NCBI GenBank assembly: GCA_000169355.1
Contig: AAXX01000003.1
Span: forward strand, 1-64,000
Source of the DNA: Flavobacteria bacterium BAL38
Lineage (GTDB): Bacteria > Bacteroidota > Bacteroidia > Flavobacteriales > Flavobacteriaceae
Direction of reading: 5' to 3'
DNA length: 64,000 nucleotides
Shown here: positions 5,605 through 39,320 of the stretch, piece after piece
Numbering within the stretch: position 1 is the stretch's first letter
Layout: each line of letters starts with the position of its first letter
Translations under genes and position numbers: made by a program
The notes under the pieces: model-generated
Seen by the model: only the letters and a program-made list of their open reading frames with translations
Database searches by the model: none
What the model was told of the DNA's origin: nothing

Positions 5605-5605
5605 T

Positions 5606-6466: not shown

Positions 6467-6473
6467 TTAGCTG

Positions 6474-7076
6474 TTATATTATTTTTTTATCAAAAAGTTC
6501 AATTACATCTTCTTTGCCTACTTGTAGATTCCAAACTTGTAATCCAAGTTGTTCTGCAATATCTGTGTTTTCTTTTTTATCATCAACAAATAAAGTCTTT
6601 TTGGGATTTAAATTATGATTATGAATTACATATTTGTATGCGTCCTCGTTGGGTTTTCTCATCCCAATTTCATATGAAAAATATACTTTTTCAAAGCAAC
6701 TGTAAAAATCGCGTGCAAAAGTTTGACCTTCTTTGTGTTCAAATTTTTCAATATGAGTGTAATCGGTATTGCTTAAAAGAAATAAACGATACTTTGATGC
6801 AATCATTTGTAAAAATTCTAAACGATACAAAGGAAAATCGCCTATAATTGAGTTCCAAGCAGTTCTAATATCGATTAAATCAATATTTGGAAGGTGTTTT
6901 TGAAAACCTTGCATGAATTCTAATTCATCAATTTTTCCAATTTCGTATTTTTTATTTAATTGATCTAAGTCGTCATGCCATTCAGTTAAACCTAATTTTC
7001 TAAATTCAGTTTCAACAGCTTCTTTGTTTAAATTAAGAAATACATCGCCAAAATCAAAAATAATTGCTTCAATCAT
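6474..7076 (-). CDS. HAD-superfamily hydrolase, subfamily IA
   Basis: This 200-residue haloacid-dehalogenase-fold protein begins with motif I FDFGDV (nucleophile Asp8). It has motif II LLSNTD near residue 101, a Lys in RKPNEDAYKY, and motif III LFVDDKKENTDIA near residue 165. An alpha-helical cap lies between motifs I and II. Members are mostly phosphatases acting on small metabolites. The stop overlaps nothing downstream, but its start overlaps the end of ribD by four bases, indicating translational coupling. A HAD phosphatase next to ribD could supply the missing riboflavin-pathway dephosphorylation step; this is only an inference from position. Confidence 0.85.
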   Translation of the reverse strand: MIEAIIFDFGDVFLNLNKEAVETEFRKLGLTEWHDDLDQLNKKYEIGKIDELEFMQGFQKHLPNIDLIDIRTAWNSIIGDFPLYRLEFLQMIASKYRLFLLSNTDYTHIEKFEHKEGQTFARDFYSCFEKVYFSYEIGMRKPNEDAYKYVIHNHNLNPKKTLFVDDKKENTDIAEQLGLQVWNLQVGKEDVIELFDKKII

Positions 7077-8113
7077 AATTGTTTGAAAATTTTAAGTTCA
7101 TCATTCATTATTTCAAAACGAGCCACTGGATTTCCAGAAATTATAGGTGCAATAATACCGTTTTGAAATATTTTTTTCCCTCTAAAAACTTTAGCTTCAT
7201 CCCATAAATTTGCATCTATAAAGGATTGTATGGTTTTAGTTCCGCCTTCAATTATAATAGATTGTATGTTGTTTTTATACAAAATGTCACAAATGGAACG
7301 AACAAGGTTAACATCAAAGATAGTATTTTCGTAGTTACAATTTTCTGTTGATGCGTATTTTTCACTTTCTGTTATAAAAATTGTCTTTTGTGAATTATCT
7401 TTAACATGATAGTTTTTTGATACTTTTCCTGATTTATCTAAAACAACTCGAATTGGATTATTTTCAGAGAAATCACGTGCATCTAATTTTGGATTATCGT
7501 CTAAAACGGTATTTGTTCCCACTAAAATAGCTTGTTCTTCAGTGCGCCATTTGTGAACCAATTGTCTGGAATATTGATTCGTAATCCAAATTGGACTTTT
7601 TTCTTCTTTCGAAATCGGAGCAATAAATCCATTAGCTGTTTCTGCCCATTTCAAAATAATATAAGGTCTTTGTTTTTGATGGAAGGTAAAAAATCGTTTG
7701 TTGAGCTCGTTACATTCGTCTTCTAAAATGCCAACGGTCACTTTTTTACCACTTTCAACTAGTTTTTTAATGCCATTTCCGGCCACTTTTGCAAATGGAT
7801 CAACGGTTCCAACCACAACATTCGGAATTTCATTTACTATAATTAAATCACAACACGGAGGTGTTTTTCCGAAATGGCTACAGGGTTCTAAACTTACATA
7901 AATTGTAGCTTCTTTCAATAATGATTTATCTTTTACCGAATTCACCGCATTGACTTCCGCATGAGGTTCGCCAGCTTTTTTGTGCCAACCTTCGCCAATG
8001 ATTTTGTTTTCATATACAATTACACTACCCACTAACGGATTTGGATACGTAGTTCCCAAACCATTTTTAGCGAGTTCAATACAGCGTTTTATGTAAAATT
8101 CGTGCGTAGTCAT
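7073..8113 (-). CDS. ribD: Riboflavin biosynthesis protein RibD (deaminase/reductase)
   Basis: This bifunctional 346-residue enzyme performs the second and third steps of riboflavin synthesis: deamination of the pyrimidine intermediate and NADPH-dependent reduction of its ribose. The N-terminal deaminase domain shows the zinc motif HAE (His51, Glu53) and PCSHFGKTPPC (Cys78, Cys87). The C-terminal reductase domain (about 148-346) has WAETANGFIAP and IIEGGTKTIQSF. It is the first gene of a tight minus-strand run with the HAD hydrolase (4-base overlap), DMT transporter and YigZ. No FMN riboswitch is evident in the 174 bases upstream. Confidence 0.96.
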   Translation of the reverse strand: MTTHEFYIKRCIELAKNGLGTTYPNPLVGSVIVYENKIIGEGWHKKAGEPHAEVNAVNSVKDKSLLKEATIYVSLEPCSHFGKTPPCCDLIIVNEIPNVVVGTVDPFAKVAGNGIKKLVESGKKVTVGILEDECNELNKRFFTFHQKQRPYIILKWAETANGFIAPISKEEKSPIWITNQYSRQLVHKWRTEEQAILVGTNTVLDDNPKLDARDFSENNPIRVVLDKSGKVSKNYHVKDNSQKTIFITESEKYASTENCNYENTIFDVNLVRSICDILYKNNIQSIIIEGGTKTIQSFIDANLWDEAKVFRGKKIFQNGIIAPIISGNPVARFEIMNDELKIFKQL

Positions 8114-8287
8114 GATACAAAAATAAGATTTTTAACAATTAAAAAATGGATTTTATGCGAACTTTGTTTTCTGTAAGGGTACCACAACCTAAACTTTGAT
8201 ATACCTTTACTATGGCGTATCTATACTTGTGCTATGTAGTTGTATAAAATTTAAATTTACGTACTTTTACCCAACAATAAAAATGCA

Positions 8288-8767
8288 ATGCTAATTAGAG
8301 AAATCCAACAAAAAGATAATGAGTCGATTGCGAATGTAATTCGTGCTATTTTTCATGAATTAGATGCGCCAAAAGTGGGAACGGCTTATGCTGATCCAAT
8401 TTTAGATACACTATATGAAGTCTATCAAGCGCCTCGTTCAGTGTATTATGTAGTGGAACACGATGGAAAAGTAGTGGGAGGCTGTGGTGTGGCGCCTTTA
8501 GAGAATGGTGATGATTCGGTATGTGAATTACAAAAAATGTATTTTGCTCCCGAAATCAGAGGAACGGGTTATGCAGAGAAAATCATTGAAAAATGTTTGG
8601 AATTTGCTAAAAAACAAGATTTTGAAATTTGTTATTTGGAAACCTTATCGTTTATGACAACCGCACAAAAACTTTACAAACGAATTGGTTTTGAAAATAT
8701 TTGTGGACCTATGGGAAACACTGTGCACAGTAGTTGTGAAGTGTGGATGACGAAGAAATTAGTTTAA
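8288..8767 (+). CDS. GNAT-family N-acetyltransferase
   Basis: This 159-residue single-domain GNAT protein has the core YYVVEHDGKVVGGCGVAPL, the acetyl-CoA-binding MYFAPEIRGTGYAEKII (the Q/RxxGxG/A loop) and the late strand LETLSFMTTAQKLYKRIGF. It would transfer an acetyl group from acetyl-CoA to an amine; the substrate is unknown. It precedes prmC by four bases on the same strand and is probably co-transcribed with it. Confidence 0.85.
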   Translation: MLIREIQQKDNESIANVIRAIFHELDAPKVGTAYADPILDTLYEVYQAPRSVYYVVEHDGKVVGGCGVAPLENGDDSVCELQKMYFAPEIRGTGYAEKIIEKCLEFAKKQDFEICYLETLSFMTTAQKLYKRIGFENICGPMGNTVHSSCEVWMTKKLV

Positions 8768-8771
8768 AATT

Positions 8772-9653
8772 ATGCTGTTAAAACAATACAAAAATCACTT
8801 TTTCGATTCGCTAAAAAACATTCAAGACGAACAAGAAATCGAAAGTTTCTTTTTCATCCTAACCGAATATTTGCATAATTTAAAGCGAGTAGATGTCGCT
8901 TTGAATCCAAATTTTGAGCTTTCAGAAGATGATGTTGAAAAGTGGAATTCTATTTTAGCGGATTTACAACAAGAAAAACCCATTCAATATATCACAGGTG
9001 AAGCTTGGTTTTACGGTTTGCAATTTGAAGTCAATGAAAACACTTTAATTCCAAGACCAGAAACAGAAGAATTGGTAGAATGGATTTTAAATTCACCCAT
9101 TACCCATTATCCATTACCTATCACCATTTTAGACATTGGAACGGGTTCTGGTTGTATTCCTATTTCATTAAAAGCTAACTTACCACAAGCCAATGTTTCA
9201 GCAATTGATGTTTCCGAAAAAGCATTAGAAGTAGCTAAAAGAAACGCAGTTTCAAATAAGGTTGAAATCAATTTCATTCAAACTAACATATTAGAAGTTG
9301 AAGATTTATCCCAACTTCCATCACCCAACTTCCATCACCCATCTTCCTTCAATATAATCGTTTCAAATCCTCCCTACGTTCGTAATTTAGAAAAACAAGA
9401 AATCAAGAAAAATGTATTGGATTATGAACCGCATTTAGCGTTATTTGTAGAAAATACCGATGCCTTACTTTTTTATAGAAAAATTGCTCAATTAGCGTTA
9501 AAAAACTTGTCGCCAAACGGGTTGTTGTTCTTTGAAATTAATCAGTATTTAGGAAAAGAAACGGTTGAATTATTAAAGAATCTAGGTTTCAAAAACATCG
9601 ATTTGAAGAAGGATATCTATGGTAACGATCGAATGATTAGGTGTTCGGTTTAG
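8772..9653 (+). CDS. prmC: Release-factor glutamine methyltransferase PrmC
   Basis: PrmC methylates the Gln of the GGQ motif in peptide-chain release factors. This 293-residue protein has the N-terminal helical domain (1-95), the PRPETEELVEW motif, the SAM-binding LDIGTGSGCIPI and the catalytic SNPPYV. Two stretches look inserted. SPITHYPLPIT lies just before the SAM motif, and QLPSPNFHHPSS just before NPPY. Both are encoded by short tandem repeats (9094-9125, and three 14-base units at 9311-9352) that keep the reading frame. They lie at loop positions, so the enzyme is probably functional. Confidence 0.95.
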   Translation: MLLKQYKNHFFDSLKNIQDEQEIESFFFILTEYLHNLKRVDVALNPNFELSEDDVEKWNSILADLQQEKPIQYITGEAWFYGLQFEVNENTLIPRPETEELVEWILNSPITHYPLPITILDIGTGSGCIPISLKANLPQANVSAIDVSEKALEVAKRNAVSNKVEINFIQTNILEVEDLSQLPSPNFHHPSSFNIIVSNPPYVRNLEKQEIKKNVLDYEPHLALFVENTDALLFYRKIAQLALKNLSPNGLLFFEINQYLGKETVELLKNLGFKNIDLKKDIYGNDRMIRCSV

Positions 9654-9673
9654 TTTGACATGAATTACGCAAA

Positions 9674-9838
9674 TTTACACAGAGATTCACCGAGTTTTTT
9701 TTGATTTTTAATCTGTTGAAAAGAGATACACCGAGCGTTTCACTTTTTACAATTCAAACATATATTGAAAAAGCAGTATAATTTTAAGTGTTTCTTAGTG
9801 AACTCTGCGAAAAACTTTATCTCTTTGTGGTTAACTTT
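9674..9838. repeat. Dispersed CACAGAG/CACCGAG repeat, gene-less inverted pair
   Basis: The gap between prmC and the permease gene begins with a unit reading TTACACAGAG, CACCGAG, a T-rich spacer, then ACACCGAGCGTTTCACTT. After about 40 bases an inverted-orientation arm follows (AAGTG, CTCTGCG, CTCTTTGTGGTTAA). The first arm closely matches the units flanking the GxxExxY gene at 61.9-63.0 kb, but nothing is encoded between the arms here. A looser relative lies at 12,757-12,785. Confidence 0.6.
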
Positions 9839-11324: not shown

Positions 11325-12749
11325 ATGGCACAAAAACCAAGCATACCAAAAGGAACCCGAGATTTTTCACCAGCAGAGGTGGCAAAACGCAATTATATTT
11401 TCAGTACGATAAAAACCAATTTTGAGAAATTTGGTTTTCAACCGATTGAAACACCTTCGTTTGAAAATTCTGAAACCTTAATGGGAAAATATGGCGAAGA
11501 AGGTGATAGATTGATTTTTAAGATTTTGAATTCGGGTAATTATTTTTTTAATAAAAATAAAATTGAAATTCCAGTTTCGATTGATGATTTACAAGTAAAA
11601 TCGGCAGAAGATATTTCTAAAGAAGAACTAATTCAATTAAATCAGTTTACATCTAAAATTTCTGAAAAAGCCCTTCGTTACGATTTAACCGTTCCATTTG
11701 CGCGTTACGTAGTACAACACCAAAATGAAATTGAGTTTCCGTTCAAACGTTACCAAATTCAACCGGTTTGGCGTGCCGATAGACCTCAAAAAGGACGTTT
11801 TAGAGAATTTTATCAATGTGATGCCGATGTGGTGGGTTCGAATTCGCTTTGGCAAGAAGTAGAGTTGGTGCAATTATATGACTCGGTTTTTTCGCAATTA
11901 GGATTAAACGGAGTGACTATTAAAATTAACAACCGCAAAATATTATCTGGAATTGCTGAGGTAATTGGCGCTTCGGATAAATTAATTGATTTTACGGTAG
12001 CTTTAGATAAATTAGACAAAATAGGTGAGGACGGCGTAAAAAAAGAAATGTTAGAAAAAGGCATTTCGGAAACCGCTATCGAAAAAGTACAGCCTTTGTT
12101 TAATTTCACAGGAACCATCAACGAAAAAATAGAAAAATTAGCTGTTTTATTAGCTAATTCTGAAGAAGGAATGAAAGGCGTAAACGAGTTGCAATTTATT
12201 TGTGATAACGTTTCGACTTTAGGTTTACAAACCGCTTTCTTAGATTTAGATGTAACGTTAGCTCGTGGTTTAAATTACTACACGGGTGCCATTTTTGAAG
12301 TTGCTGCGCCTAAAGGTGTTGCTATGGGGTCCATTGGTGGTGGTGGTCGCTATGATGATTTAACCGGAATCTTTGGGTTGAAAAATATGAGTGGTGTTGG
12401 GATTTCGTTTGGTTTAGACCGAATTGCTTTAGTAATTGAAGAACTTGGATTATTTCCAGAAGCTGTTTTAGCGACATCAAAAGCATTGTTTTTAAATTTT
12501 GGAGATAAAGAAGCTTTATATGCTATGCAAGCCATTGGAAAATTGCGTCAAGCCGGAATAAAAGTAGAATTATATCCTGATAATGCAAAAATTGGAAAAC
12601 AATTTCAACATGCCGATAAACGCGGAATTCCTTTCACGGTTTTAGTGGGTGAGGAGGAAATACAAAACAATCAGTATGCTATTAAAAATTTAGCATCTGG
12701 TGAGCAGCAAAAAGTGGATTTTGAGACTTTAGTTGCATTATTGAAATAA
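11325..12749 (+). CDS. hisS: Histidyl-tRNA synthetase
   Basis: This 474-residue class II aminoacyl-tRNA synthetase charges tRNA-His. It begins with the class motif GTRDFSPAE. It has motif 2 around [24 protein letters not shown], the histidine-binding [13 protein letters not shown], motif 3 [11 protein letters not shown], and the C-terminal anticodon-binding domain (from about 385). It is longer than the roughly 420-residue E. coli enzyme because of an insertion around residues 60-110. The gene is expected to be essential and appears intact. Confidence 0.97.
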
Positions 12750-12855
12750 ATAAAACACAGATTTCAAAGATTAACACAAATTGATTTTTGAATTTGTAAT
12801 TGCTTTTTGAACTTGAGTTTTATTTTTACCCTTGAACTTGTAATTGATTTTTGAT

Positions 12856-13203
12856 ATGAATGTAGACGACGAAGCAAAAAAAGTAATTTGGTCACTTCAA
12901 AACAATAAACGTTCTGAAGCTGAACGAAATGTGTTTGAACCAACTGGCAAAAAACTAATGAATAAAAATGTGGTTTATATTTTTTCGGCTATCGGAATTA
13001 TACTTTTAATGAGTTTTGCGTTGTCTCAGTTTTCTAAAGAAGCTACTAATTTTTGTTTTTTAATTGAAAATTTTTGTTTTAATTCTGAAGAAAATCCAAT
13101 AGCGTATGCGTTTTATGTTTTTATGAATCTATGGATTTTAATCTTAGGAATTGGAATTGCCTATTTGATTGGTAAAAAACTTGGAAATTACTTAAAGATT
13201 TAA
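12856..13203 (+). CDS. Small membrane protein of unknown function
   Basis: This 115-residue protein has a charged N-terminus and two predicted transmembrane helices (about 42-62 and 85-110), separated by a short loop with two Cys residues. I chose ATG 12856 over the upstream TTG because it is a normal start. I do not recognise the family. It follows hisS by about 100 bases on the same strand and is convergent with the large T9SS gene. Confidence 0.55.
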   Translation: MNVDDEAKKVIWSLQNNKRSEAERNVFEPTGKKLMNKNVVYIFSAIGIILLMSFALSQFSKEATNFCFLIENFCFNSEENPIAYAFYVFMNLWILILGIGIAYLIGKKLGNYLKI

Positions 13204-13282
13204 TAATTAAAAATATAAAAACGGATATTTTCATAAGGAGAAAACACCCGTTTTAAGAGAAGTAGAATTTTGTAGTTATGCA

Positions 13283-16200
13283 CTACTTAATGATAATTTT
13301 TTGGCTAAAATAAAGGTTGTCAGTTGTTTTTAATTTTACAATATAAACCCCTGTTTCAATATTTTTAACAGGTATTTTTATGCTTTTTTCGGAACTATTT
13401 ATTTTCCAATTACTTATTTTTTGACCTAAAAGAGAGAATAATGTAGCTTCTTCAATTTCCAAAAATTGGTTGTTTATAATTTCTATATTATTTTCTGTCG
13501 TATTAAAAAACACAGTAGTTGGCATTGAATCAAAGTCAGTTGATGAAAGTGTTTCGTTAGTAAATCTGAGTGAGAATCTGTTGGTTATTTCTCCCGCAGG
13601 TATAGTAATACTTGCATTTGAAGTTCTTAAGTTATAATAAGTATTATTACTGTTATCGTGAATATAAATAGGTTGGTTAGGGTCAAAATTTTCTAATCCA
13701 TCAATCATGAAATTAACCAAACCTGTTTGACTTGATTTTAGGGTTAACGGATAAGAATTATTTATGTTAAAGAATCCAACTCCCTGAATCACTAATTTGT
13801 AACTTCCTGCTTGAAAATAAATATCGTTTGGTTGAATATCTATAATTTCGGCATCATAGCCTAAATTATAGCTATCGTCTGCATGTTCGTTCATAAAACC
13901 TATTAATAGTTGTCTGTGATAATTAGTGCTCCCCGTATAGCCTAATCTTATTCTAGAAAATAAATCTGGAATAACTTCTACATCATTATTATTGTTTAAA
14001 CTAAGAGATTGATTTGGTGTTCTGAACATTTCGTTTGAGTTTACATTGTCTTCTTTAACAAATTTACGTTGACTATTTTGATATATAATTTGTCCGCCAT
14101 TTGTGTTTCCTTTTACAAAAAAGCCTTGTGCTACTGGAATGTATCTTCCAGGAAATCTAGAGCTTGAACCTAATCCGCTTATTAATGCTGGGGAAACAGG
14201 AGGAACACCGCCTACTAAATTTCTGGTAGCATAACCACCTTGATATCCTGATAGAACGTGAGTGCTATTAGAAGTATAATGTTCCCAAAAATATAGCGAT
14301 CCAGTAATAGCGCTTAAGTTGTCTATAATAAATTCATCTGCATCAAGCGCTGATGCATATGGATTTCCAACTAAGTTAATATTATTAATTCCTATTTGAA
14401 TTCCAGTATTATTGATTAATCCGTTATTTGGTTTTCCAGAAAAAACATAATTTTGAGCCAACACACTTGGAGGTATTACAATACCACTTCCTTTCATTGT
14501 GTACCCTTGACCAGATTTAAGTACTGTGTTTTCTGTAATTTGTTGCCAATTGGCATACTCAGATGTTAAGTTGGTGAATTTATATAACCAATATCTTGCA
14601 AGTCTCATAGGACTTGAAGCGCCATTTACACCAGCAATCCACGTAATTGTTTGAGGTGACGCAGGATTGGTTCCATCTCGCAAAATATTTCCAACTGTAA
14701 ATCCGGTGTTGTTTTCGGTACTACTTACAACAGAACTAACGGGAGAAGACCAATAGTTGTAATTATATAAGTTTCCTGTCCCTTTTTGGTCTTTTTCTAT
14801 ACTTCCGATACTTGCAGGATCTAAATCGCTATCATCTGTTTGTAGTAATTGCGAATACTCTTGTAAATCAATTATGCCATCTAATTTTAAATACCAATCA
14901 TTTTGTATTTTGGTGTCGTTAATAACATCTATTCTAGCACTTGCGTTAACAAACATTCCTAAGTCGATATGGTTAGAATTAGATGTAATATTATGATTTA
15001 CTTGAATAATTGACCAATCGTAATCATTTACATCTAAGCCACGAATTTGTTTTGAAATTGAGTGAGAAGCAGTGGCAAAATCACCTGTTTGTTCTGTAAT
15101 AAATGGCATTGGCGCTTCTTGAGGAGCAATTGTTTTTACATTAAAAATTTTAGCTCCGGGAGTTGTATCAATAATTAATGTAGCATGATTGTCAATTACA
15201 TCGTCTTTGTAGTTATCCATTCTATAATAGCGAATTAGATTTGGCCAAAGTAAGTTTGGAACATCTTTTGGAATAATAGCTCCTCTAACTTGGTTGCTGT
15301 TTTCTTCAATTTCTTGATACACTATTTTTTGAAATTGTGAATCAGATAAAGCGATATCAAATAATCGTACTTCATCTATTTTGCCTTTAAAGAATTGTGT
15401 ATCTGAAATTGCATTTTTCCCAATAGTAAATAGTGAAGTGTCAGAAGAGATAACTCCGGAAACAGATGTACTATTTACTATTTCTCCATTAATAAACAAT
15501 TTCAGTGTTTCATTTGTACCGTCATAAACCGTTCCAACATGAATCCATTGTGCTGTGTTTAAGATTTCACTACTAATTAGAGAAACTCCGTTGCCAATAA
15601 CTTCAACTTGTTTAGAATTTGTTATTTTAATTTGAAATTTATTTTGACCAACAACAACTCCTTCAGAAGTAAATGCATTATTAATGTTAATCCAAGCCAT
15701 TAAAGTAGCATTTTCCCAATTTATAATAATATTGTCATCTGTTGCATAGTCGTTTCTACCGTCAAAGGATAAGAATAGTTTTCTTTCTAAGTTTCTTGGA
15801 GAACCAAATACACTATTATTGGTATCAAAAGCATCTAAAATTCCATCTCCATCACTATCGGTATTTCCATCAATGATTCCATCATTATTGGTGTCTAAAT
15901 GGGCATAAAGTGTTTGTGAAATATCAAAAGTTAATCCGTTAGACATTACATCTAAATAATCTGGATTTCCATCACCATCAGTATCTTTTACGTAATAATT
16001 AAAAGGTACAATATTAGTTCCTTGATCATAGTTGCCATAAATATTTACAGCATAATCGTATATGTCTAAAATTCCATCACCAAAGCCTTCAAGAATTCCA
16101 TCTCCATTAGTATCTTTATTTCTAAACGTTTCTGTTTCAGGTCCGTCTCCGCTTCCATTTCCGTTAATATCTCCGTCTCCATTTTCATAACCTACATAAG

Positions 16201-26211: not shown

Positions 26212-29200
26212 TTATTGTACAATCCATTTTTTTGTAACATTTTTACCTTCTTGTGTTATGGTTATGTAATAAATTCCTGTTGGCAATGGATTCATAGACT
26301 TGAATTGTCTTGTTAATCCATCCGTTAACTCTACTGCTATTGGAATTTGTTGACCTAAAGCATTATTTAATATTACTTTAGTAGCATCATTCCAATTCGA
26401 AAGATTTAAGTAAAAAGAACTTAATGATGATGGATTAGGATACAAAAGAATGGAAGATTCAAAATCCACATTACCTAACTGTGAAACATGAAACACAATT
26501 TTGAAACGATCTTCCCCATAAGACAAAACATCTGAAGTAGTGTTTATAGCAATAATATTATCTTGGGTTAAATCTATTTCAGACTGTGTATTCAAAAATT
26601 GATCCACTAAAAATGCGGAAATGGCAGTGTCAAAATTTAAAGGTTCAAATTTAAAAGTGTACGATTTATTAGCGCTGAATCGTAATGTTTTAACTAACAA
26701 TTGATCATTGTCTGTTACAGGAAATAACGTTGATATAGTTAATTTTTTATTAGAACTTAACCATGCTATATTTTCTCCTGCAGACTCCAATTTTTCTATA
26801 TCTCCAACATCGATAGCATTTGTATAGTTATCACCAAATAAGGCAACTACTCCATCAATAGGTGCAGATCCAAGAGACAATTCATTTGGTTCATAAACTA
26901 ACATGCCCAACTTACCAAGTAAAACTTCTTGTGTTCTAAAAACACTGGCAAAAGTTCCTGCTTTATCACTTTCGTTAAAAGTTAAGGTACCAGGCGTCCC
27001 TAAACTAGAATTTCTAACAAAAAAAGCTTGTCCAGGTTGAATAAATCGTCCAACTTGTGAAGAACCAGAATTTCCTAAGTTGTTAAATCCTGTAGAAGCA
27101 CTATAAGCAACGTAACGACCTCTTTGTGTTGGTGTTCCCATATTAGCATCCCATGCGTAGTAAGAATCCAAAATCCCTGATTTTGTAACAGTGTGCCAAT
27201 CAACAGGACTCACATAAGGATTACCTACAAAACTAAAACCATTTGTAGTTGTATTTGTAGTTGTATTAATAGAAGGTGAACTAGATGAATTAAAAACAAC
27301 TTGACCTGTTTTTAATTCTCCCGTTGCACGTAAAGTTATAGCAGCATTCATATTAGCTTCTGAAGCATTAGTTATTAAAGAAGGTGTTCTGTCTCCTCTA
27401 ATTAATATACGATAACCCTCTGCTGCTTTTAGATAGGTTGCATGGGTATTAGCAATAGGCGTCCATCCAGTTCCAGTAATAGCGGTATTATTATAAGTGT
27501 ACATAGAAGGATTTCCTGAAGCAGTTTGATCAAAACCACTAGAACCTGTTGTAGAACCTGTAATATGAGTTGCCAATTGCCAATTACCTGAAATAAAATT
27601 AATAGTCGTAACACCAGGTGTTATAAAACGGAATGCACGTTTCCCTTGAGGAATATAACGCTCAACAGTAACATTATTAGCATTTGATAACGTACCCGTA
27701 ATTTGTCCAATAATAGCGTCCCCATTAGCATCAGATTGCAATACCACCGATTTTCCTCCGAAATCAGCCGATCCGCTAATGGTTAGAGTCTTTAATGGAT
27801 TAATGGTTAAACCACCCGTTCCACTTATGATGAGGGAGCCTGCTACGGTAAAGTCAATATCCAGTGTTGGGGAGCCGTCATTGATGGTAATATTATCCAA
27901 AGTAGAAGGTACGGAACCACAAGACCAATTCGCAGCATTACTCCAGTTGCCTGTGCCACCGATCCAGTTTTTTTCAGGATAGATAGTAACCGTTGCACTA
28001 CCACTCAAATCACTCGAAGTGGCAGTACTTTGACTGTCACTCAACGCAACAAGGGTATAAGTAGTTGTCGCACTTGGACTAACCGAAAACGTATACGGAC
28101 TAGTAGCAATAGCATTTACCGTAACAGGTGTAGTGCCATCAGTATAGGTTACACTCCAAGGCGCTGTACCCGTTAATGCTATGCTCAATTGTGTAGATGA
28201 ACCGTTACATACTGTGGCATCGCCACTGATAACGCCTGTCGGATTTACAATAGAACTACCCTGAACATTGAAAGAATAAACACTTTCATCACAATCATCA
28301 CTAGTAATAGTAACCGTTGCCGATTTAACACCTGAAGTAGCTGCATTAAAGGTGACCGTAAAAGTAGCAGAAGTACCAGCAACAATTGTTGCTGGAAGCA
28401 TAACATCACCCACTATAAACGCCGCCGCATCAACACCCGAAAGTGCAATACTAGCCACTGACAAATTGCTTGTGCCTGTATTTTGAATGGTATAGGTTTT
28501 GGTGGTTGGGGTATTTAATACTACCGTTCCAAAATCAGTATCATCAGCTACATCAGGGGAGCTATCACCTGAAATTATGTTTTGACCATTTGCTTGAAGA
28601 TTTATTTCTGCCGGATTTAGTATACCCCCATCGGTAATGTTCCAACCATAACTATTTATCATACTTTGGCGAGCTGCTGCACCTGCACAATACTGGCTAT
28701 TACCACCATCGAAAATTACGCTTGGTTGCAAGGTTTGTGATGCCCAACCAGTAAGCAGTGCATCATAATTTATTGTAGATAGCGTTACCCCAGTGAACAT
28801 ATTGTCCATATAAGTCACACTACTCACATCCCAGCTGCCAAGGTCTTGGTTAAAAGAGGTGGCATTATAGAACATCTGTGTCATGTCTGTCACACTACTC
28901 ACATCCCAACCGCCAATGTTTTGGTTAAAGGAGGTGGCACCACTGAACATAGAGCCCATATTGGTCACACTACTCACATCCCAACCGCCAATGTTTTGAT
29001 TAAAGTTTGTTGCTCCTAAGAACATTACACTCATATCAGTCACACTACTCACATCCCAATTACCAATATCTTGGTTAAAGGAGGTGGCTTCTAAGAACAT
29101 ATAGGCCATATTAGTCACACTACTCACATTCCAATTACCAATATCTTGGTTAAAGGAGGTTGCTCCTAAGAACATAGCGCTCATATCAGTCACACTACTC

Positions 29201-32200
29201 ACATCCCAATTCCCAATGTTTTGGTTAAAGGAGGTTGCTCCTAAGAACATAAGACTCATATCAGTCACACTACTCAGGTCAGGGCTATCTGTGGCATTAC
29301 CTTGCAGGTTGGCACAACCCCAAAATGCACCGTCCATGGTACTCCAGGGTGTGGTGCCCCATTGCTCTATACTTCTAATATTGAGTTTACTACCTGTGTT
29401 ATTAAAGTTAACACGATCGTACGTACCATTAACACTTACCGTATAGGTCCCTGAAAAGGAGTAGCTATGTCTTGGGTTATCACCTAAACCTGATTCTATA
29501 GTACCATCACCCCAATCGATGGTCATATTGGCACCACCTACCGCTGTGAGTGGGAAGGTGATAGTACCGTCACTCAAGACTTGCCAGGTGGTGATGAAAG
29601 TACCAGCACATCCAGCAATTGCTGCACCACCATCGGTAATGTTCCAACCATAAGTAGCCATCATACTTTGGCGAGCTGCTGCACCTGCACAATACCGGCT
29701 ATTACCACCATCGAAATTTACGCCTTGTTGCAAGGGTTGTGATGCCCATCCAGTAAGCAGTGCATCATAATTTATTGTAGATAGCGTTACCCCAGTGAAC
29801 ATATTGTCCATATAAGTCACACTACTCACATCCCAATTCCCAATGTTTTGGTTAAAGGAGGTTGCTCCTAAGAACATAAGACTCATATCAGTCACACTAC
29901 TCACATCCCAAGCAGCAATGTCTTGGTTAAAGGAGGTGGCATTATAGAACATATAGCTCATACTATTCACATTACTGACATTCCAATTACCAATGTTTTG
30001 GTTAAAGGAGGTGGCATTATTGAACATGCCAGACATACCAGTCACACTACTGACATCCCAACTGTTAATGTTTTGGTTAAAGGAGGTGGCACCAGCGAAC
30101 ATTTCGCTCATATTGGTCACATTACTCACAACCCAACTACCAATGTTTTGGTTAAAGGAGGTGGCATCATCGAACATAATTGCCATATTAGTCACACTAC
30201 TCACATTCCAAGTACCAATGTCTTGGTTAAAGGAGGTGGCACCAGCGAACATTTCGCTCATATTGGTCACATTAATAACATCCCAACCGCCAAGGTCTTG
30301 ATTAAAGGAGGTGGCAGCAGCAAACATAGCGCTCATAGTAGTCACACTACTCACATCCCAATTACCAATGTTTTGGTTAAAGGAGGTTGCTCCTAAGAAC
30401 ATAGCGCTCATATCAGTCACACTACTCACATCCCAAGCAGCAATGTCTTGGTTAAAGGAGGTGGCATTATAGAACATATAGCTCATACTATTCACATTAC
30501 TGACATTCCAATCGCCAATGTTTTGGTTAAAGGAGGATGCTCCTAAGAACATAAGACTCATATCAGTCACATTACTCAGGTCAGGGCTATCTGTGGCAGT
30601 ACCTTGTAGGTTAGTACAACCATAAAATGCATTGGCCATCGTACTCCATGCTGTGGTGCCCCATTGCTCTATACTTCTAATATTGAGTTTACTACCTGTG
30701 TTATTAAAGTTAACACGATCGTACGTACCACCAACACCTACCGTATAGGTGCCTGATAATGCGTAGGTATGGCTTGGGTTATCACCTAAACCTGATTCTA
30801 TAGTACCATCACCCCAATCGATGGTCATATTGGCACCACCTACCGCTGTGAGTGGGAAGGTGATGGTCTCGTTATCCGTTGTGGTTTCCCAAGTGGTGAT
30901 GAAAGCATCAGTATTGTCCCACTGCGCATATAAGATTACATCAGCACTACCCATGGTGTAAGCTGCCTGTTCTGCGTAGTCAGTACCAGTGCCATCGGCT
31001 GCCGTATTCCAACCCACAAAGGTATAGTTTGTAAGTGTAAACGCATTGGCAGTTAATGCTTCGGTAGTCCCTGCTGCAATCAACTGATTGGCCATGGTAC
31101 CTGCACCACCGTTGGCATTAAAAGTAATAGTGTAGGTTGGCGCCGCATTTTCATACCAGGCAATTTTGTCATCATCAAATGATGCAGAGAGCACATCTAA
31201 ATCGCCATCGCCGTCTAGATCAGCGGCGCTAACACTAACAGCACCATTTGCCAATGTGGTAATGATATTTTGCCCACCAAATCCTCCTGTGCCATCATTG
31301 GCATACCAGGCAATTTTGTCATCATCAAATGATGCAGACAGCACATCTAAATCGCCATCGCCGTCTAAATCTGCGGTGCTAACACCAAAAGCCGCACTTG
31401 CATCTGTGGTAATAATTTGTTGCACACCAAAGCTACCCAAGCCATCATTGGCATACCAGGCAATTTTGTTATCAAAATATGAAGCAGACAGCACATCTAA
31501 ATCGCCATCGCCGTCTAAATCTGCGGTACTGACACGCACAGCCCCATCTGCCACTGTGGTAATAATTTGTTGGGCACCAAAGCTACCCGAGCCATCATTG
31601 GCATACCAGGCAATTTTATCATCATTTAATGAAGCAGACAGCACATCTAAATCGCCATCGCCGTCTAAATCTGCGGTGCTAACACTAGAAGCACCATTTG
31701 CCGCTGTGGTAATAATTTGTTGCGCCCCAAAGCTACCCGATCCATCATTAGCATACCAAGCAATTCGGTTATTACTAACAGAAAGCACATCTAAATCACC
31801 ATCGCCATCTAAATCTGCGCTGGTAACACTCGAAGCACGACTTGCCACTGTAATAATTTGTTGCCCACCAAATCCTCCTGTGCCATCATTGGCATACCAG
31901 GCAATTTTGTTATCTAATTGTGAAGCAGACAGCACATCTAAATCGCCATCGCCGTCTAAATCTGCGGTGCTAACACCATAAGCATAATTTGCCGCTGTGG
32001 TGATAATTTGTTGCCCACCAAAGCCCCCTGTGCCATCATTGGCATACCAGGCAATTTTGTCATCAGTACTTGATGCAGACAGCACATCTAAATCGCCATC
32101 GCCGTCTAGATCAGCGGCGCTAACACTCAAAGCCCCATCTGCCAATGTGGTAATGGTATTTTGCCCATTTGGAAAAGTCCCAGGACTAGCTGCAGCTACC

Positions 32201-35200
32201 GCTGCGGTAAAACGATAACTATAAGGGATTCCCAAAAGTACGCCAGCACTACTACTTACATTTGTAGTAAGTGTGGTGGTGATCACTTCTCCTGGGAAAA
32301 AAGAACGATTAGGAGCTAGTGCTACCGTAGCCGCTGTAACAGTAGGGCTAGCAAAGCTAAGAGGTAGCCCTTGGTTTCCAGTAATTTTAACATTGGTAGC
32401 CGTAACACTTGCCGCATCTACATTGTCATCAAAAACAAGCGTTATGTTTGCGTCGTTAGCGACAACTATCGCGTTTGTGGTAGGGGTTGTTGCTAGTACA
32501 CTTAACTTAAGAAACCACTGTGCATATAACGTTACATTAGCACTGCCCATGGTGTACGCTGCTTGGTCTGCATAGAGGGTACCCAAGCCATCGACTGCGG
32601 TATTCCAACCCAAAAAGCCATAGTTGGCTAGTGTAAACGAGTTAGCACTAAGTACTGCGGTAGCTCCTTCGGCAATAACTTGGTTGTCCATCATACCCAC
32701 ACCACCATTGGCATTAAAAGTGATTTCAAATCCCCACTGCGCATATAGCGTAACGTTAGCACTACCTATCGTGTACGCTGCTTGGTCTGCATAGAAAGTA
32801 CCGGTACCATTCGCAGCAGTAGTCCAACCCAAAAAAGTAGATTCTTCTCGTGTAAACGTGTTGGCAGTTAATACTGCAGTAGCTCCTGCTGCAATCAACT
32901 GGTTAGCCATGGTACCTTCGCCACCATTGGCATTAAAGGTAATTGTGGGATTTGAATTTTCATACCAGGCAATTTTATCATCATAAAATGAAGCAGACAG
33001 CACATCTACATCGCCATCGCCGTCTAGATCTGCGGTGCTGACACTTTCCGCCCCACTTACAGCAGTGGTAATAATTTGTTGCGCCCCAAAGCTACCCGAG
33101 CCATTATTGGCATACCATGCAATTTTAGGAGATATAACAGAAAAACCAAAAACAGCAGACAGCACATCTAAATCGCCATCGCCGTCTAGATCTGCGGTGG
33201 TAACACTACTAAAATCTCCCTGCGAATTAATATATTGTTTCGCCCCAAAGCTACCCGAGCCATCATTGGCATACCAGACAATTTCTGTATAAATATTCGA
33301 AGCAGACAGCACATCTAAATCACCATCGCCGTCTAAATCTGCGGTGCTAACACTAGAAGCACCATTTGCCGCTGTGGTAATAATTTGTTGCGCCCCAAAG
33401 CTACCCGAGCCATCATTGGCATACCATGCAATTTTGTTATCATAAAATGAAGCAGACAGCACATCTAAATCGCCATCGCCGTCTAAATCTGCGGTACTGA
33501 CACTTGTAACGTAATTTACAGCAATAGTAATAATTTGTTGCGCCCCAAAGCTACCCGAGCCATCATTGGCATACCAGGCAATTTTGTTATCATTAGATGA
33601 AGCAAACAGCACATCTAAATCGCCATCGCCGTCTAAATCTGCGGCACTGACACTTTCAGCCCCATCTGCCACTGTGGTGATAATTTGTTGGGCACCAAAG
33701 CTACCCGAGCCATTATTTTCATACCAAGCAATTTTGTCATCAAAGGCTGAACTAGACAGCACATCTAAATCGCCATCGCCGTCTAGATCTACAGCGCTGA
33801 CACTTGTAACGTAATTTACAGCAATAGTAATAATTTGTTGCGCCCCAAAGCTACCCGAGCCATCATTGACATACCAGGCAATCGCATCATATGAAGCAGA
33901 CAGCACATCTAAATCGCCATCGCCGTCTAGATCTGCGGTGCTAACAATCCTAGCCGTATTAGCCGCAGTGGTAATAATATTTTGCCCATTTGGAAATATT
34001 CCAGGACTAGCTGCAGCTACCGCTGCGGTAAAACGATAGGTATAAGGAGTTAGCAAAGGCACACCAGCACTACTACTTACACCAGTGGTAAGTGTGGTGG
34101 TGATCACTTCTCCTGGAAAAAAAGATCGGTTAGGAGCTAATGCTACCGTAGCCGCTGTAACAGTAGGGCTAGCAAAGCTTAGAGGTAGGCCTTGATTTCC
34201 TGAAATTTTAACGCTAGAAGCTGTAACACTTGTCGCATCTACATTGTCATTAAAAACAAGTGTTATGTTTGCGTCATTAGGGGCAACTATTGCGTTTACG
34301 GTAGGGGATGTTGTGAGTACACTGATCTGAACCCCCCACTGTGCATACAGCGTGACATTAGCACTGCCCATGGTGTAAGCTGCTTGGTTTGTATAGTAAC
34401 TACCCGAGCCATCATCTGCAGTATTCCAACCCACAAAGTCATTGGCGTCTAATGTAAAGGAGTTAGCAGTTAATGCTTCGGTAGCTCCTTCGGCAATCAA
34501 CTGGTTAGCCATGGTGCCTACGCCACCGTTGGCATTAAAGGTAATACTAGGGTTTACCAATGCACCAATAGCAAAGGTATAACTACTGTTAGCACAAGCA
34601 TCACTACTTACCGTTACTGTAGCTGTTTTAGTGCCGAATGTTGCAGGGGTAAAGGTTACATCAAATGTGGTTTCGCCACCCGCTGGTACTGTTGCTGGTA
34701 GCGTAATATTACTGAACACAAAATCTGAAGCATCTGTGCCTGTTATAGCAATATTAGAAACTGCTAAAGCCAAAGTACCTGTATTTTGTATGGTGTAGGT
34801 TTTGATACTTGGCGTATTTTGTGCCACCACACCAAAATCAGTGTCGTCTGTAGTTGAAACTGTTGTAGCACCTGCTACAATTGGGGTTCCATTACCCTGA
34901 AGATTGACACTAAGTATACCCCCATCGGTAATGTTCCAACCATAACTATTTATAATACTTTGGCGAGCTGCTGCACCTGCACAATACTGGCTGTTACCAC
35001 CATCGAAATTTACGCTTGGTTGCAAGATTTGTGATGCCCAACCAGTAAGCAATGCATCGTAGTTAGCTGTAGAGAGGGTTACGTTCTGGAACATATCCTG
35101 CATGTTAGTCACACTACTCACATCCCAGCTGCCAATGTCTTGGTTAAAGGAGGTGGCATTTTCAAACATAAGGATCATATTAGTCACACTACTCACATTC

Positions 35201-37917
35201 CAAGTACCAAGGTCTTGGTTAAAGGCGGTGGCATCACGGAACATAGCACGCATATTAGTCACACTACTCACGTTCCAATCACCAATGTCTTGGTTAAAGG
35301 AGGTGGCATCAGCGAACATTCGGACCATACCTGTGACACTACTTACATCCCAACTGCCAATGTTTTGGTTAAAGGAGGTGGCACCATCGAACATAGAGCC
35401 CATATTAGTCACATTACTTACGTTCCAGCCTACTAAATTTTCTCCTGTTAAAGATGTACAACCACTAAAGGTTTCACTTAAACTAGTGGCATTACTTAGG
35501 TCTGGTGTATCGGTGGCAAGTATCTGCAAGTTTACGCAACCTGCAAATGCTTGGTCCATTGTTCTCCACTGGGTAGTACCCCATTGGTCTACGGATTGTA
35601 ATGTCTCTGGAAGACCAAAACCCGGACCATAATATGCTAAGGGACTAATTAATCCATCAAACTCACCAAATGCTCTAATGTGATACGTTCCTGGTGAAGT
35701 ATAAAGATGTTCAAATTCAAAAGACCCTTGCCTTATCTCTAAACTACCATTGGCATCACCCCAATCAATAAAAATATTCCCATTTGGGGTTTGCGAATCT
35801 AACAAGAGATAATAATAACCAGATGTAGCGCTTAAATCATCAATAGCTATTGTAATACTAAAAAAATCTGTGTCTGCCACCCACTGTGCATTCAGCGTTA
35901 CATTGTCACTACCCATGGTGTAAGCTGCTTGATCTGCGTAGTAAGTACCGGTGCCATCGGCTACCGTATTCCAACCCACAAAGGTATAGCCTGCAAGGGT
36001 AAACGTATTGGCAGTTAATGCTTCGGTAGCTCCTTCGGCAATATCTTGATTGGCCATGCTACCTGTGCCACCGTTTGCATTGTAGGTAATTGTATAATTA
36101 AGCGTCCACTGTGCGAACAATGGTAAAGAACCATCAAATGTAATGGCTTCAGCTTCAGTATAAGAAGTTCCCGTTCCATCGGACAGGGTATTCCATCCGG
36201 CAAACGTGTTGCCCGTTTTTACGAGGGCTCCTGAATTTGTTGCCAGCGTTACCGAAGAACCTATGGTCTCTAACTGAGATGCAGGAACAGTTCCGCCTGT
36301 ATTGCCATTACCGTCATAAGTAACACCAATAGCATAAGACCAAGCCGCACCTTGGCTAGTAGCATCCCCATCAGCTCCTACCAACATATTCGTACCGTCG
36401 GCTGAAAGGGCAACACTTCGGCCCATGTACAAAGTAGTTCCCACTGTACCTGTTGCTAAAAGTTTTTTGCCTTTTTGCGTATAAATATTTCCAGAACGGG
36501 TAAATACCCATGCCGCACCTCTGTTACCATTGTCAGTAACACTACCCATCATCGCGGTGTTGCCATCTGCGGATAGTGATACAGAAGTTCCGTTGGCTGC
36601 AGTACCTATTGCATCAGAACCTACAAGTGTAGTGCCTTGCTGCGTCCACGTAGCTCCTGAACGGGTAAAAACCCATGCATTGCTAACATTGCTGGTTGCA
36701 TTAATACCTCCAATCAATAATGTAGTAGCATCGGCAGAAAGCGCAACAGATTGACCTTGCTTAGAAGCACCTACAGCCCCAGTTCCAACTAGTTTATTAC
36801 CTTGTTGTGTCCAAGTAGATCCCGAACGGGTAAATATCCAGGTAGCTCCTTTATTGCTGTCATCACCTGCACCGCCTATTGCGGCAATATTGCCATCAGC
36901 AGAAAGGCTAACCGCGGTACCTTGCTGTGCAGCTCCAATAGCTCCTGTTCCTACCAGTTTAGTTCCCTCCTGAGTCCATGTGGTTCCTGAACGGGTAAAA
37001 ATCCATGCGGCACCAGCATTGGCATTATCATTGTAACCACCCACAAGGGCAGTATTGCCATCGGCTGATAGCGAAACTGATTTACCAAACCACGCATTAC
37101 CCACTCTATCCGAAGCCACCAATTTTGTTCCTTGTTGAGCCCATGTACTACCCGAACGGGTAAAAATCCATACAGCGCCTTTTCCGCTAGCATCAACAGC
37201 GCCACCAACAATAGCGGTGTTGCCATCTGCAGAAAGTGCTACAGAAAAACCTTGCCATGCATTACCAGTATTTCCTGTGCCTATTAATTTTGCTTGTTGT
37301 GACCAAGTATTTCCAGTTCGGGTATAAGCCCAAGTGGCACCTGCGCCATTGTTGTCATAATAGCCACTTACCAAAGCCGTTTTACCATCTGCAGAAAGTG
37401 CTACCGACCAACCCTGACTTGGTGAAAGCAAACCGCTTGAAGCCACCAATTTAGTTCCTTGTTGCGCAATGGGAAAAGGAGTGTTTTGTACGGTAAACGT
37501 ACCAGCGCTTGTAGCTAAACCACCTGGTGTGCTAACTGCCACCGTGCCTGTAGCCGCACCTGGCATTACCATACCTACCAACGTTTCTCCTGTATTAGAT
37601 ACTACAACGGCAGATACGCCACCAATAGTAAAAGAGGATAGCCCGTTTAAATCAGTTCCTGTAATGGTTACCAATGTACCCGGAGCACCGCTAGCGGGCG
37701 TAAAAGAAGAGATTATGGGAACGAAGTTTTGCTGTACCCCATCTGTACTAGAACCTGTTGCACCGGTTTTATAGGTGTAAAATACCTCTCCTGCGGTGAA
37801 GCTGGCGCTGCCACCAGTTCCTGTGGCTTCGCCTCCTAATGCATCCGTGTTACTTTGTACCGATAACCTTACTATGCAAAGCAGAAAATAGATGGCTAAT
37901 GATATTGATTTTTTCAT
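26212..37917 (-). CDS. Giant modular T9SS surface protein (3901 aa)
   Basis: This exported protein has a signal peptide (about 1-22) and a TIG/IPT-like domain (about 48-145). It then has seven FG-GAP-like repeats ([13 protein letters not shown], about 155-525), InlB-type B repeats (ITFNANGG...YAQW), a PKD-like segment, and BspA/DUF285 repeats ([19 protein letters not shown]). Choice-of-anchor-D and SbsA-type Ig domains follow, with two large blocks of VCBS/FG-GAP repeats ([15 protein letters not shown]). More DUF285 blocks and a C-terminal T9SS sorting domain (about 3825-3901) complete it. Adhesion or polymer binding on the cell surface is likely. The gene is visibly richer in G and C than its neighbours and contains long near-identical internal duplications. 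The frame is intact despite the repeats. Confidence 0.85.
28600..30890 (-). repeat. Long internal duplication within the giant gene
   Basis: A segment of DUF285 repeats with its preceding PKD-like domain (about 28.6-29.6 kb) is repeated almost base for base at about 29.63-30.9 kb. For example, the same cyan-like run encoding [25 protein letters not shown]'s domain appears at 29,340-29,410 and 30,650-30,725. A third, more diverged block lies at 34.9-35.6 kb. The high identity implies recent duplication or gene conversion inside the gene. Confidence 0.75.
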
Positions 37918-37953: not shown

Positions 37954-37975
37954 AAAAACCCGACCGCTGCGCGGT
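37954..37975 (-). terminator. GC-rich hairpin after the DUF1566 gene
   Basis: On the minus strand ACCGC-GCA-GCGGT forms a perfect five-pair stem, followed by CGGG and a run of five T. It lies about 50 bases beyond the stop of the 431-residue gene and before the giant gene, and could terminate or attenuate transcription between them. In a DGR context a hairpin after the variable region would also be expected. Confidence 0.5.
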
Positions 37976-38004: not shown

Positions 38005-38018
38005 GCCTGCCGGTAGGC
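38005..38018. repeat. Near-perfect palindrome GCCTGCCGGTAGGC
   Basis: This 14-base sequence is self-complementary at 12 of 14 positions and lies seven bases after the stop codon of the 431-residue gene. GC-rich hairpins immediately after the variable region are a known feature of several DGRs, where they aid target recognition. It may equally be a common intergenic palindrome. Confidence 0.6.
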
Positions 38019-38024
38019 CAGTAG

Positions 38025-39320
38025 TTAAAAAGCCCGAACAGCACGACCCCTGACCGTGAGGTTCTTACCGTTGCTGGCCTGGAAGCCATTGTCGAAGCCC
38101 TGCTCCCAAGCGATGAGGTTATTGTTCTCGGTAGAACTCCAATAGTAGGCACTAGCAAAACCGCCAATAGCAGCTTTATTTAAATATAATTTATTTAATT
38201 CATCTTGGCTAGGTAAATACCAATCAGTATATCCTCCACCTGTATAGGCTCTGGCTAAGCCTGCTGCATAGCTGGTTGCAGTAGCACCTTGACTTGCAAT
38301 AATAATATTTGTATTGGATAACCCCGTTCCTATAGCAGTTCCTGTTGCTCCTGTTACAATATAACTACCATTATACCATCGAATTCCTGTACTTTGATCT
38401 GAGGTTGCAGCAATTAAACCATGTTGTGTATTTGCATCATATCCTGGATCGCCAGGTTGTAATATGTACGCTATTTTACCCCCACCATAGCTACTGCCAA
38501 TAGTTATATCGGTACCTGCAGCACTTCCCATCATGTTTCTCCACATTCCTCCAGAATATACTTGTACTTCGCCTCCAACACTTGTTTGTCCACAATCAGT
38601 ACAAAATATAACTAGTCCGGTTGCAGGGCTTGTAATTGAATTCCGTTGTGCAAAAGTCATCCGCGGCGGTAAAAAACCTTGGGTTGTACTAGCTATTTCA
38701 ACTTTTGCTGAAGCGCTTGGAGTAGTTGTTCCCACACCCAATGTGCCCGTAAGTAATTTGTTGCCCGCAAAAGTTTGTGTTCCTGTAGTAACTATACCGC
38801 CGTTGGTAGCATCCGCAGGGGTTAAACTTAACACACCAGCCGTTATAGTACCGCCATTAGCCGAAGATGAACCCCCTACAACGCCCATTATGGTAGCATC
38901 ACCACTCTTTGCAGCATACATCGCATACGGCACACTCAGTATTTCCTGCGTACCCGTAATGCTGTAGTTGCTCCCACCCGCTGGGTCGGTTTCGGTTTTA
39001 ATGAAGTAGGGTCCAGCTGCCCAGTCTATACCCGCAAAGGTTCCTGTTGTGGCTGCACCAGTTCCTATTTGTATGCTCACCAAACCATTACCATTGGTAG
39101 TAGCTGTTTGGGTTTCTACATACACAGCCGAGCCTGTTGCACTGCCTTGCAATACACTAATTCTAATACCCACTGCAGTATTTGCCAACAAAACATTGCT
39201 GCTGTTGCGAAGCACCGATTGGTAACTCATTTTTTGGGGTGCTTGGGCAGTGGCCTGTTGCGTTAATAATAGGCTGGCTGTGAGTAACAGACCTGCTAAA
39301 ATGGAATTGATTTTTTTCAC
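38025..39320 (-). CDS. Exported DUF1566-like protein, candidate DGR target
   Basis: This 431-residue protein has a signal peptide (about 1-25). Its N-terminal module (about 28-135, MSYQSVLRNSSNVLLANTAVGIRISV) is common in Bacteroidota surface proteins. A low-complexity middle follows. The C-terminal DUF1566/Fib_succ_major-type domain (about 265-431) contains DWYLPSQDELNKLY and YYWSSTE, ending in VRAVRAF-like RAVRAF. This fold is one of the target classes of diversity-generating retroelements, and the last 41 codons have the composition expected of a variable region. It lies upstream of the giant surface-protein gene on the same strand. Surface display and ligand binding are inferred. Confidence 0.75.
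   Translation of the reverse strand: MKKINSILAGLLLTASLLLTQQATAQAPQKMSYQSVLRNSSNVLLANTAVGIRISVLQGSATGSAVYVETQTATTNGNGLVSIQIGTGAATTGTFAGIDWAAGPYFIKTETDPAGGSNYSITGTQEILSVPYAMYAAKSGDATIMGVVGGSSSANGGTITAGVLSLTPADATNGGIVTTGTQTFAGNKLLTGTLGVGTTTPSASAKVEIASTTQGFLPPRMTFAQRNSITSPATGLVIFCTDCGQTSVGGEVQVYSGGMWRNMMGSAAGTDITIGSSYGGGKIAYILQPGDPGYDANTQHGLIAATSDQSTGIRWYNGSYIVTGATGTAIGTGLSNTNIIIASQGATATSYAAGLARAYTGGGYTDWYLPSQDELNKLYLNKAAIGGFASAYYWSSTENNNLIAWEQGFDNGFQASNGKNLTVRGRAVRAF
38028..38150 (-). other. Candidate DGR variable region (3' end of gene)
   Basis: The last 41 codons of the 431-residue gene differ from the rest. By hand count, 38031-38130 is 58% G+C against 33% for the adjacent 38151-38250. Eighteen of the 41 codons end in C, and none ends in A. 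The C-ending codons include CTC, ATC, GGC, TTC, GAC, GCC, AGC and GTC, all derivable from AAC by changing adenines only, mixed with unchanged AAC. The encoded end, WSSTENNN...VRGRAVRAF, fits a C-type-lectin-like target tail. No template repeat or reverse transcriptase is in the window. Confidence 0.55.

Follow-up and report, generated by a model that had tools for sequence, protein, structure and literature searches.

In the DGR of the Bordetella phage BPP-1, the available text of Guo et al. (2011, PMC3240598) describes a variable region (VR) that lies at the 3′ end of a gene, varies in an adenine-specific manner and is followed by a hairpin needed for efficient retrohoming. This hairpin has an 8-bp stem and a 4-nt loop and stands behind a 4-bp spacer; among phage DGRs, the same excerpt indicates, the distance is flexible, ranging from 4 to 34 bp, with longer spacers lowering efficiency (PMC3240598). 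According to the consulted parts of two further reports, VRs, remote targets, action in trans and incomplete DGRs are already known, as are distal targets beside a mutated reverse transcriptase (RT) (PMC10907252, PMC3521204). In Thiohalocapsa PB-PSB1, where the local DGR is incomplete or absent, a VR agrees with a template (TR) at every or almost every non-adenine site, the matching TR or an intact variant being found in the same genome or population (PMC10907252, in part). Among DGR targets, DUF1566 is given as the most common Pfam domain in the portion seen of PMC6642488, and a survey anchored on the RT would, as far as the excerpt of Roux et al. goes, not detect remote targets (PMC8144416).

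The locus described here lies in a 64-kb stretch of DNA, the whole of which is referred to as the window. It shares with the DGRs numbered L047 and L048 the non-adenine positions of their TRs, to within 2–3 of 85–86 bases, and a VR placed C-terminally in a gene of the Lcl_C type, with a VR-type 3′ end and a downstream hairpin. Unlike those loci, in which the VR gene is followed by an Avd gene and a TR (and, in L048, an RT), the window has the VR alone. A decayed DGR of the same genus (genome G452, locus L086) likewise combines an Lcl_C target and its VR with a hairpin, an Avd and a TR; it differs in that its RT is truncated and its TR is retained and of another sub-type. Measured against the available description of BPP-1 (PMC3240598), the adenine-specific VR and its hairpin are alike, but the hairpin here has a 5-bp stem, a GCA triloop and a 50-nt spacing, and neither DGR RT nor TR was found in the organism's own assembly. 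Against Thiohalocapsa, so far as that report was available (PMC10907252), the difference is that fitting TRs come from other organisms only.

The VR-bearing gene (38025..39320, minus strand) is an open reading frame of 431 aa, predicted to encode a secreted adhesin-like protein. Its C-terminal part matches Lcl_C/DUF1566 (PF07603) at residues 306–429 with 43.6 bits in Pfam, placing the VR at the 3′ end of a gene of the C-type-lectin-like/DUF1566 class, the fold being a prediction; an AlphaFold model of the Lcl_C domain from a 10-row alignment reached a mean pLDDT of 37. The NCBIfam model Bdello_MAT_N also matched the protein, with 38.1 bits against its cut-off of 60. The N-terminal 136 aa are 63% identical to the target gene of the DGR at L046, a paralog on contig 11 of the same genome shares 65% identity with the N-terminal part over 142 aa, and the first part of the gene is, judged from these alignments, of native type. 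Against the L047 target, protein identity is only 38%, counting the aligned part. Downstream of the VR gene, at 26212-37917 on the minus strand, lies a gene for a 3901-aa secreted protein in which repeats of FG-GAP-like, BspA-like and InlB-like type can be recognised by eye, as can a sorting-type C-terminus.

The 3′ tail of the gene departs abruptly from the rest in composition. An earlier note on this DNA had reported that the last 41 codons of the 431-residue gene differ sharply from those before them and that G+C is 58% in the tail against 33% beside it; both statements are borne out, the measured values being 58% at 38031-38130 and 32% at 38131-38230. The third base is C in 18 of the 41 codons and G or C in 28 (0.68), and it is never A; the other 390 codons are 29% G/C-ending (0.29) and 35% A-ending. 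When codons were drawn from the long genes of the 64-kb window with the amino acids held fixed (n = 20,000), none of the 20,000 simulations was as extreme as the tail in its G/C-third count, its C-third count, its absence of A or its codon likelihood. That no tail codon ends in A is due in part to three core template codons, AAA, ACA and AGA, all of which are G-ending in the window VR. The codons CTC, ATC, GGC, TTC, GAC, GCC, AGC and GTC, proposed earlier to derive from AAC through changes of adenines alone, are all found in the tail; of its TTC codons, the one at position 413 is indeed adenine-derived, while that at 409 reads TTC in the template too. Likewise the 41-codon tract is real, but it starts further upstream than had been supposed, with TR identity running from 38166-38167 (codon 385) and the first mutated codon at 402.

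Templates with which the tail could be compared were found in other organisms. A degenerate pattern applied to viral contigs retrieved three DGRs. Their TRs read AWNQNFNNGNQNNNK, with AWYQ in one case, and their VR genes end in RARAVRR. A TR pattern that required asparagine codons at most variable positions of the window VR was run over named genomes covering 84,980 species by the database description; it matched four stretches, L045-L048, all in Bacteroidota records, and gave no match in viral contigs. All four TRs have an Avd-type gene nearby, together with a gene whose VR is of the same class. The Avds of L047 and L048 are recognised by PHROGs and also, below cut-off, by NCBIfam, and those of L045 and L046 are 67–74% identical to them; a DGR RT is present in L048, and none occurs within the stretches of L045, L046 and L047. 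L047 belongs to Mesohalobacter halotolerans (NZ_SWMU01000001; Flavobacteriales, Flavobacteriaceae) and L048 to a metagenome-assembled genome titled Bacteroidales (JADHVR010000129). Their TRs are 95.6% identical over 206 nt and their Avds 96.5% identical over 115 aa, and since such near-identity spans Flavobacteriales and a Bacteroidales-titled record, this DGR family looks mobile from its sequences. In L048 the VR gene beside the intact DGR (L048:6535-7554) carries a one-base length change within the VR that destroys the RAVRAF end, possibly a homing error or an assembly error.

Read against these foreign TRs, the organism's own genome offering no cognate one, the tract at 38024..38166 on the minus strand fits throughout, save mainly at template adenines and in the 3′ difference between VRs and TRs. 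Over 144 nt of the L047 TR, mismatches fall at 23 of 53 template adenines and at 3 of 91 other bases (Fisher p 2.7e-9). In the 134-nt core (38033-38166), which stops short of the 3′ end because VRs differ from TRs there anyway in DGRs of the L047 type, the counts are 21/49 for adenines and 3/85 for other bases, to be set beside 17/49 and 0/85 for the native L047 VR against its own TR. With the L048 TR they become 22/50 and 2/85; two of the three non-adenine differences from the L047 TR agree with that of L048, and a single T-to-G base is accounted for by neither. The mutated stretch proper, codons 402–424 (38049..38117, minus strand), has 21 substitutions that derive from adenines of the L047 TR, together with two T-to-C differences that match the L048 TR. 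Compared directly, the VRs of the window and of L047 differ at 26 positions of template adenines and at 3 elsewhere. The differences are thus confined to template adenines to within 2–3 bases. TR identity begins sharply at 38166; in the 150 nt upstream of that point, 77 of 120 aligned bases are shared with the L047 VR gene.

A Fisher p-value against a TR also responds to protein-level constraint, because template adenines fall at variable residues, and the contig 11 paralog gives p-values similar to those of the window VR. The argument for a VR therefore rests on identity at non-adenine and silent sites. Non-adenine third codon positions are mismatched at only 2 of 42 relative to the L047 TR and at 1 of 41 relative to that of L048, and the keeping of such silent sites is not predicted by selection acting on the protein.

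How unusual this identity is can be read from a control in which 33 tails were scored identically, every row by its non-adenine mismatch to the best of 10 TRs. Nine VRs compared with the TR of their own locus showed 0–3.1% mismatch, the window VR 4.5% (3/67), the contig 11 paralog 5.8% with 6 gap positions, and the tails from genomes G028 and G432 8.7% and 9.5%, while 16 other Lcl_C tails ranged from 16 to 46%. The 16 include L011 (G001), at 17.6%, which adjoins a DGR relic, and the second Lcl_C gene on contig 11 (L007), which, at 16.2%, could be an old VR. Four viral VRs (L032, L036, L039, L041), whose own TRs were missed by the regular expression, were kept apart from these 16 and showed 14–19% against foreign TRs. 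The expression that picked tails retained 10 of 20 control loci, an eleventh, L135, being a duplicate of L011; it passed over the window VR, which was added by hand, the frameshifted VR of L048 and the tail of G021. Four rows that were TRs were set aside as templates.

The 3′ end of the tract carries a further mark. The window VR ends in CGGGCTTTTTAAC (38024..38039, minus strand). L045, L047, L048 and L086 have this ending in their VRs but CGGG[A/G]TTTTAAAC in their TRs. These VR-type and TR-type ends presumably correspond to IMH and IMH*, in the terms used for BPP-1, and the window thus has the VR-type end as distinct from the TR-type one. L028 and L046 have other ends, so that this VR/TR difference is absent in 2 of 6 DGR loci.

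Behind the VR stop, at about 37963..37975 on the minus strand, stands the hairpin ACCGC-GCA-GCGGT, at a spacing of 50 nt. The earlier note had pointed it out, and it proves to be common to the VRs of related DGRs: the hairpin CCGCGNAGCGGTC follows the VR stop by 24 nt in L047 and L048, by 29–30 nt in L046 and L045 and by 84 nt in L086, and a loop variant of it stands 30 nt behind the stop in L028. Five of these six loci thus have spacings of 24–30 nt, as against 50 nt in the window and 84 nt in L086. Exact matches occur in 17 of 163 loci, counted as 8 distinct places, each 24–84 nt past a VR-type gene end; these loci were chosen around VR-type genes and are not a random sample, and the unbiased check is the organism's own 2.81-Mb genome, where a single copy was found at no more than one mismatch, at this VR, against none for the reversed control. 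Because the loop pattern G-N-A was fixed after the DGR loci had been viewed, the loop in later matches is partly by construction. In genome G647 the hairpin stands 28 nt after a target of another class. We take that target to resemble the FISUMP family. A wider pattern showed that the G028 tail is followed at 66 nt by a different hairpin, with the loop TAC. In the intact DGRs of congeners G417 and G584, a GGGGC-GTAA-GCCCC hairpin takes the place of the shared one, between target and Avd. By energy alone, the window hairpin is not exceptional (DNA fold −4.7 kcal/mol, z −0.94), nor are the eight hairpin stretches, whose single-strand folding z of −0.5 to −2.0 is unremarkable. By analogy with BPP-1, the hairpin may have a role in retrohoming in DGRs of the L047/L048 type. 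The palindrome at 38005-38018, which the earlier note had counted along with the hairpin, is likewise present, imperfect and GC-rich, in one copy in the 64-kb window; as part of a DGR target it was rejected, there being no counterpart after the VRs of L045-L048, L086 and L028, and it looks incidental.

The retroelement itself was not found in the organism's own assembly (G000; 2,806,989 bases in 14 contigs, completeness given as 100%), which shows no cognate TR, DGR-type RT or close Avd. A DNA search of this genome with the VR returned only the VR itself and a 71% paralog on contig 11, and one with the L047 TR returned the VR (E 5.8e-35), the contig 11 paralog (2.1e-9) and otherwise only short weak matches, 39 in number and all at E 0.01 or more, with no TR in either case. 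Two DGR-RT queries, both of which do retrieve DGR RTs from other genomes, gave no match in it (E <= 10 for one, <= 1e-10 for the other). PF00078 (RVT_1) matched only two loci, both retron-like genes on contig 9 about 3 kb apart (L006:8129-9208 and 12558-13885, the second split in two frames). As suppliers in trans they were rejected, the best models being TIR-, Toprim- or protease-fused retron RTs. Seven genes matched PF05635, a family that may not match every DGR Avd; none adjoins the VR, and their best tblastn matches to six DGR Avds were weak (25% over 115 aa, 36% over 39 aa). Sixteen contig-end stretches contain neither RT nor Avd matches. The genome-wide search proposed earlier for a template repeat with a DGR RT and Avd thus came back empty in this assembly, and the suggestion that the target is served in trans finds no support there. 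The absence of template and RT refutes present service in trans within this assembly; it does not refute the identity of the VR.

The same genome has another Lcl_C tail of interest, on the minus strand at about 88.8-89.8 kb of contig 11 (L007:8795-9832). It fits the TR of G452, with 4 of 69 non-adenine mismatches (4/86 over a longer tract) and 6 gap positions, and has no hairpin, nor do the contig 11 paralogs in general; from its sequence it is a probable second orphan VR, and the two VRs fit two different TRs. Within L007:5140-9832, the Lcl_C genes at 6001-6936 and 8795-9832 have near-identical downstream sequence, and the last 177 residues of a further gene, presumably membrane-protease-like, occur twice (5140-5673, 7933-8775).

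DGRs occur in the genus and family of this organism, and several are in decay. An RT query from a viral contig with other TR/VR genes (P0001) matched 3 of 299 genomes of the family Flavobacteriaceae, among them G287 (L028), with an intact RT frame and the order VR gene, Avd, TR, RT. P0001 is only 40% identical to the RT of G287, and the L048 RT was therefore added as a second query. Among 398 genomes of the genus it found intact DGR RTs in G417 and G584, close RT fragments in G046, G452 and G647, and weaker matches (28–40% identity) in nine others; the L047 TR matched four of the 398, namely G000 itself, G021, G028 and G452. The relic in G452 keeps VR, hairpin, Avd and TR; of its RT only a 75-aa frame is left, and the frames of both target gene and Avd seem to be cut short. 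The TR of this relic, with 11 of 88 non-adenine mismatches to the window VR, is of another sub-type. In G046 a contig opens with some 42 aa of RT, which give way to unrelated sequence and a stop; in G647 the target and the hairpin survive, the Avd is truncated and a piece of RT contains stops; and in G001 an Lcl_C tail occurs with the hairpin and 60 aa of an Avd, the L048 query matching no RT there. As read from these four sequences, DGR decay is something that happens in the genus. The intact DGRs of G417 and G584 (L084, L085) serve another target class, with the gene end VRCLRD. Candidate VRs were also noted in G432 C131 (L133; 6/63 non-adenine mismatches to the L046 TR) and G028 C94 (L093:4334-5188; 6/69 to the G452 TR), two genomes that are absent from the 14 with an RT match and may not both be among the 398 searched. 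In the family, L029 and L030 (G171, G367) have adenine-biased TR/VR-like repeats of another class, and both genomes have DGR RT matches in short or split frames.

Taken together, the fit to foreign TRs, save for 2–3 bases, and a hairpin common to DGR targets strongly support the earlier reading of this tail as a DGR variable region. It is very likely a genuine one, now orphaned, and probably a frozen target whose retroelement was lost or escaped sampling. A DGR of the L047/L048 family, formerly resident or brought by a mobile element, would have reverse-transcribed its TR with adenine errors; the mutated cDNA would have replaced the 3′ end of the gene at the hairpin-marked target, changing the probable ligand-binding end of a domain predicted to be surface-exposed; and the retroelement would then have been lost, or the gene separated from it, leaving one variant frozen in an intact frame. 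Retrohoming with later loss of the DGR would be the simplest account of the tail, and is favoured because the tract begins where the homology between the TR and VR of L047 begins. Continuing activity of the VR, with diversification in trans from a DGR carried by a plasmid or phage or hidden in an assembly gap, is by comparison distinctly unlikely. Such activity would suit the intact reading frame, VR-type 3′ end and hairpin, it has a precedent in the trans targets documented in the part seen of the Thiohalocapsa report (PMC10907252), and the positions of the G584 DGR, at a contig start, and of the G417 DGR, near a contig end, suggest that such loci may fall at assembly breaks; against it stand an assembly of 14 contigs listed as complete and yet without TR, DGR RT or close Avd, and 16 contig-end stretches free of RT and Avd matches.

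The end and its hairpin might also have been imported ready-made from a DGR-bearing relative, with no retrohoming in this lineage, a course of events that seems rather unlikely; being a sub-case of an orphaned target, it shares part of its probability with the preferred account. The near-identical TRs and Avds of L047 and L048 point to horizontal movement, and the tail uses codons foreign to the rest of the gene, but foreign-looking codons are a property of the TR and do not discriminate. The start of the tract at the start of L047 TR/VR homology is what replacement by cDNA would give, and the N-terminal part resembles the paralog on the organism's own contig 11. That the tail is an ordinary Lcl_C domain, its hydrophilic loop rich in C-ending codons by chance and no DGR ever involved, is extremely improbable. 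Lcl_C matches are frequent among congeners (45 of 199 genomes at E <= 1e-6), many Lcl_C tails end in VRAVR-like motifs, and variable positions differ among non-DGR homologues too; ordinary descent, however, would have to produce a non-adenine mismatch far below that of the 16 other tails, silent positions conserved with TRs of other genera, and a hairpin unique in the genome yet positioned as in DGR loci.

A DGR target without its DGR, as the orphaned VR appears to be, is of a kind already known, and the use of the hairpin as a marker together with foreign templates goes slightly beyond it; titles and the beginnings of abstracts in the DGR literature, a partial coverage, held no account of this case. 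In practice, recognition of a VR does not require its own template: the TRs of other genera can serve as the test and the downstream hairpin as a guide, an approach that reaches targets missed by RT-anchored surveys. DGR decay is thereby documented within one genus, together with orphan or relic targets. A rather doubtful extension is that quick DGR turnover in the genus leaves intact modular targets that an incoming related DGR could re-engage in trans. If so, dormant targets would persist in the genus as a reserve open to a transferable mutator. The window VR and the contig 11 VR, the latter lacking the hairpin, would then be two such sockets in one genome, and DGRs would be transferable mutators rather than fixed cassettes.
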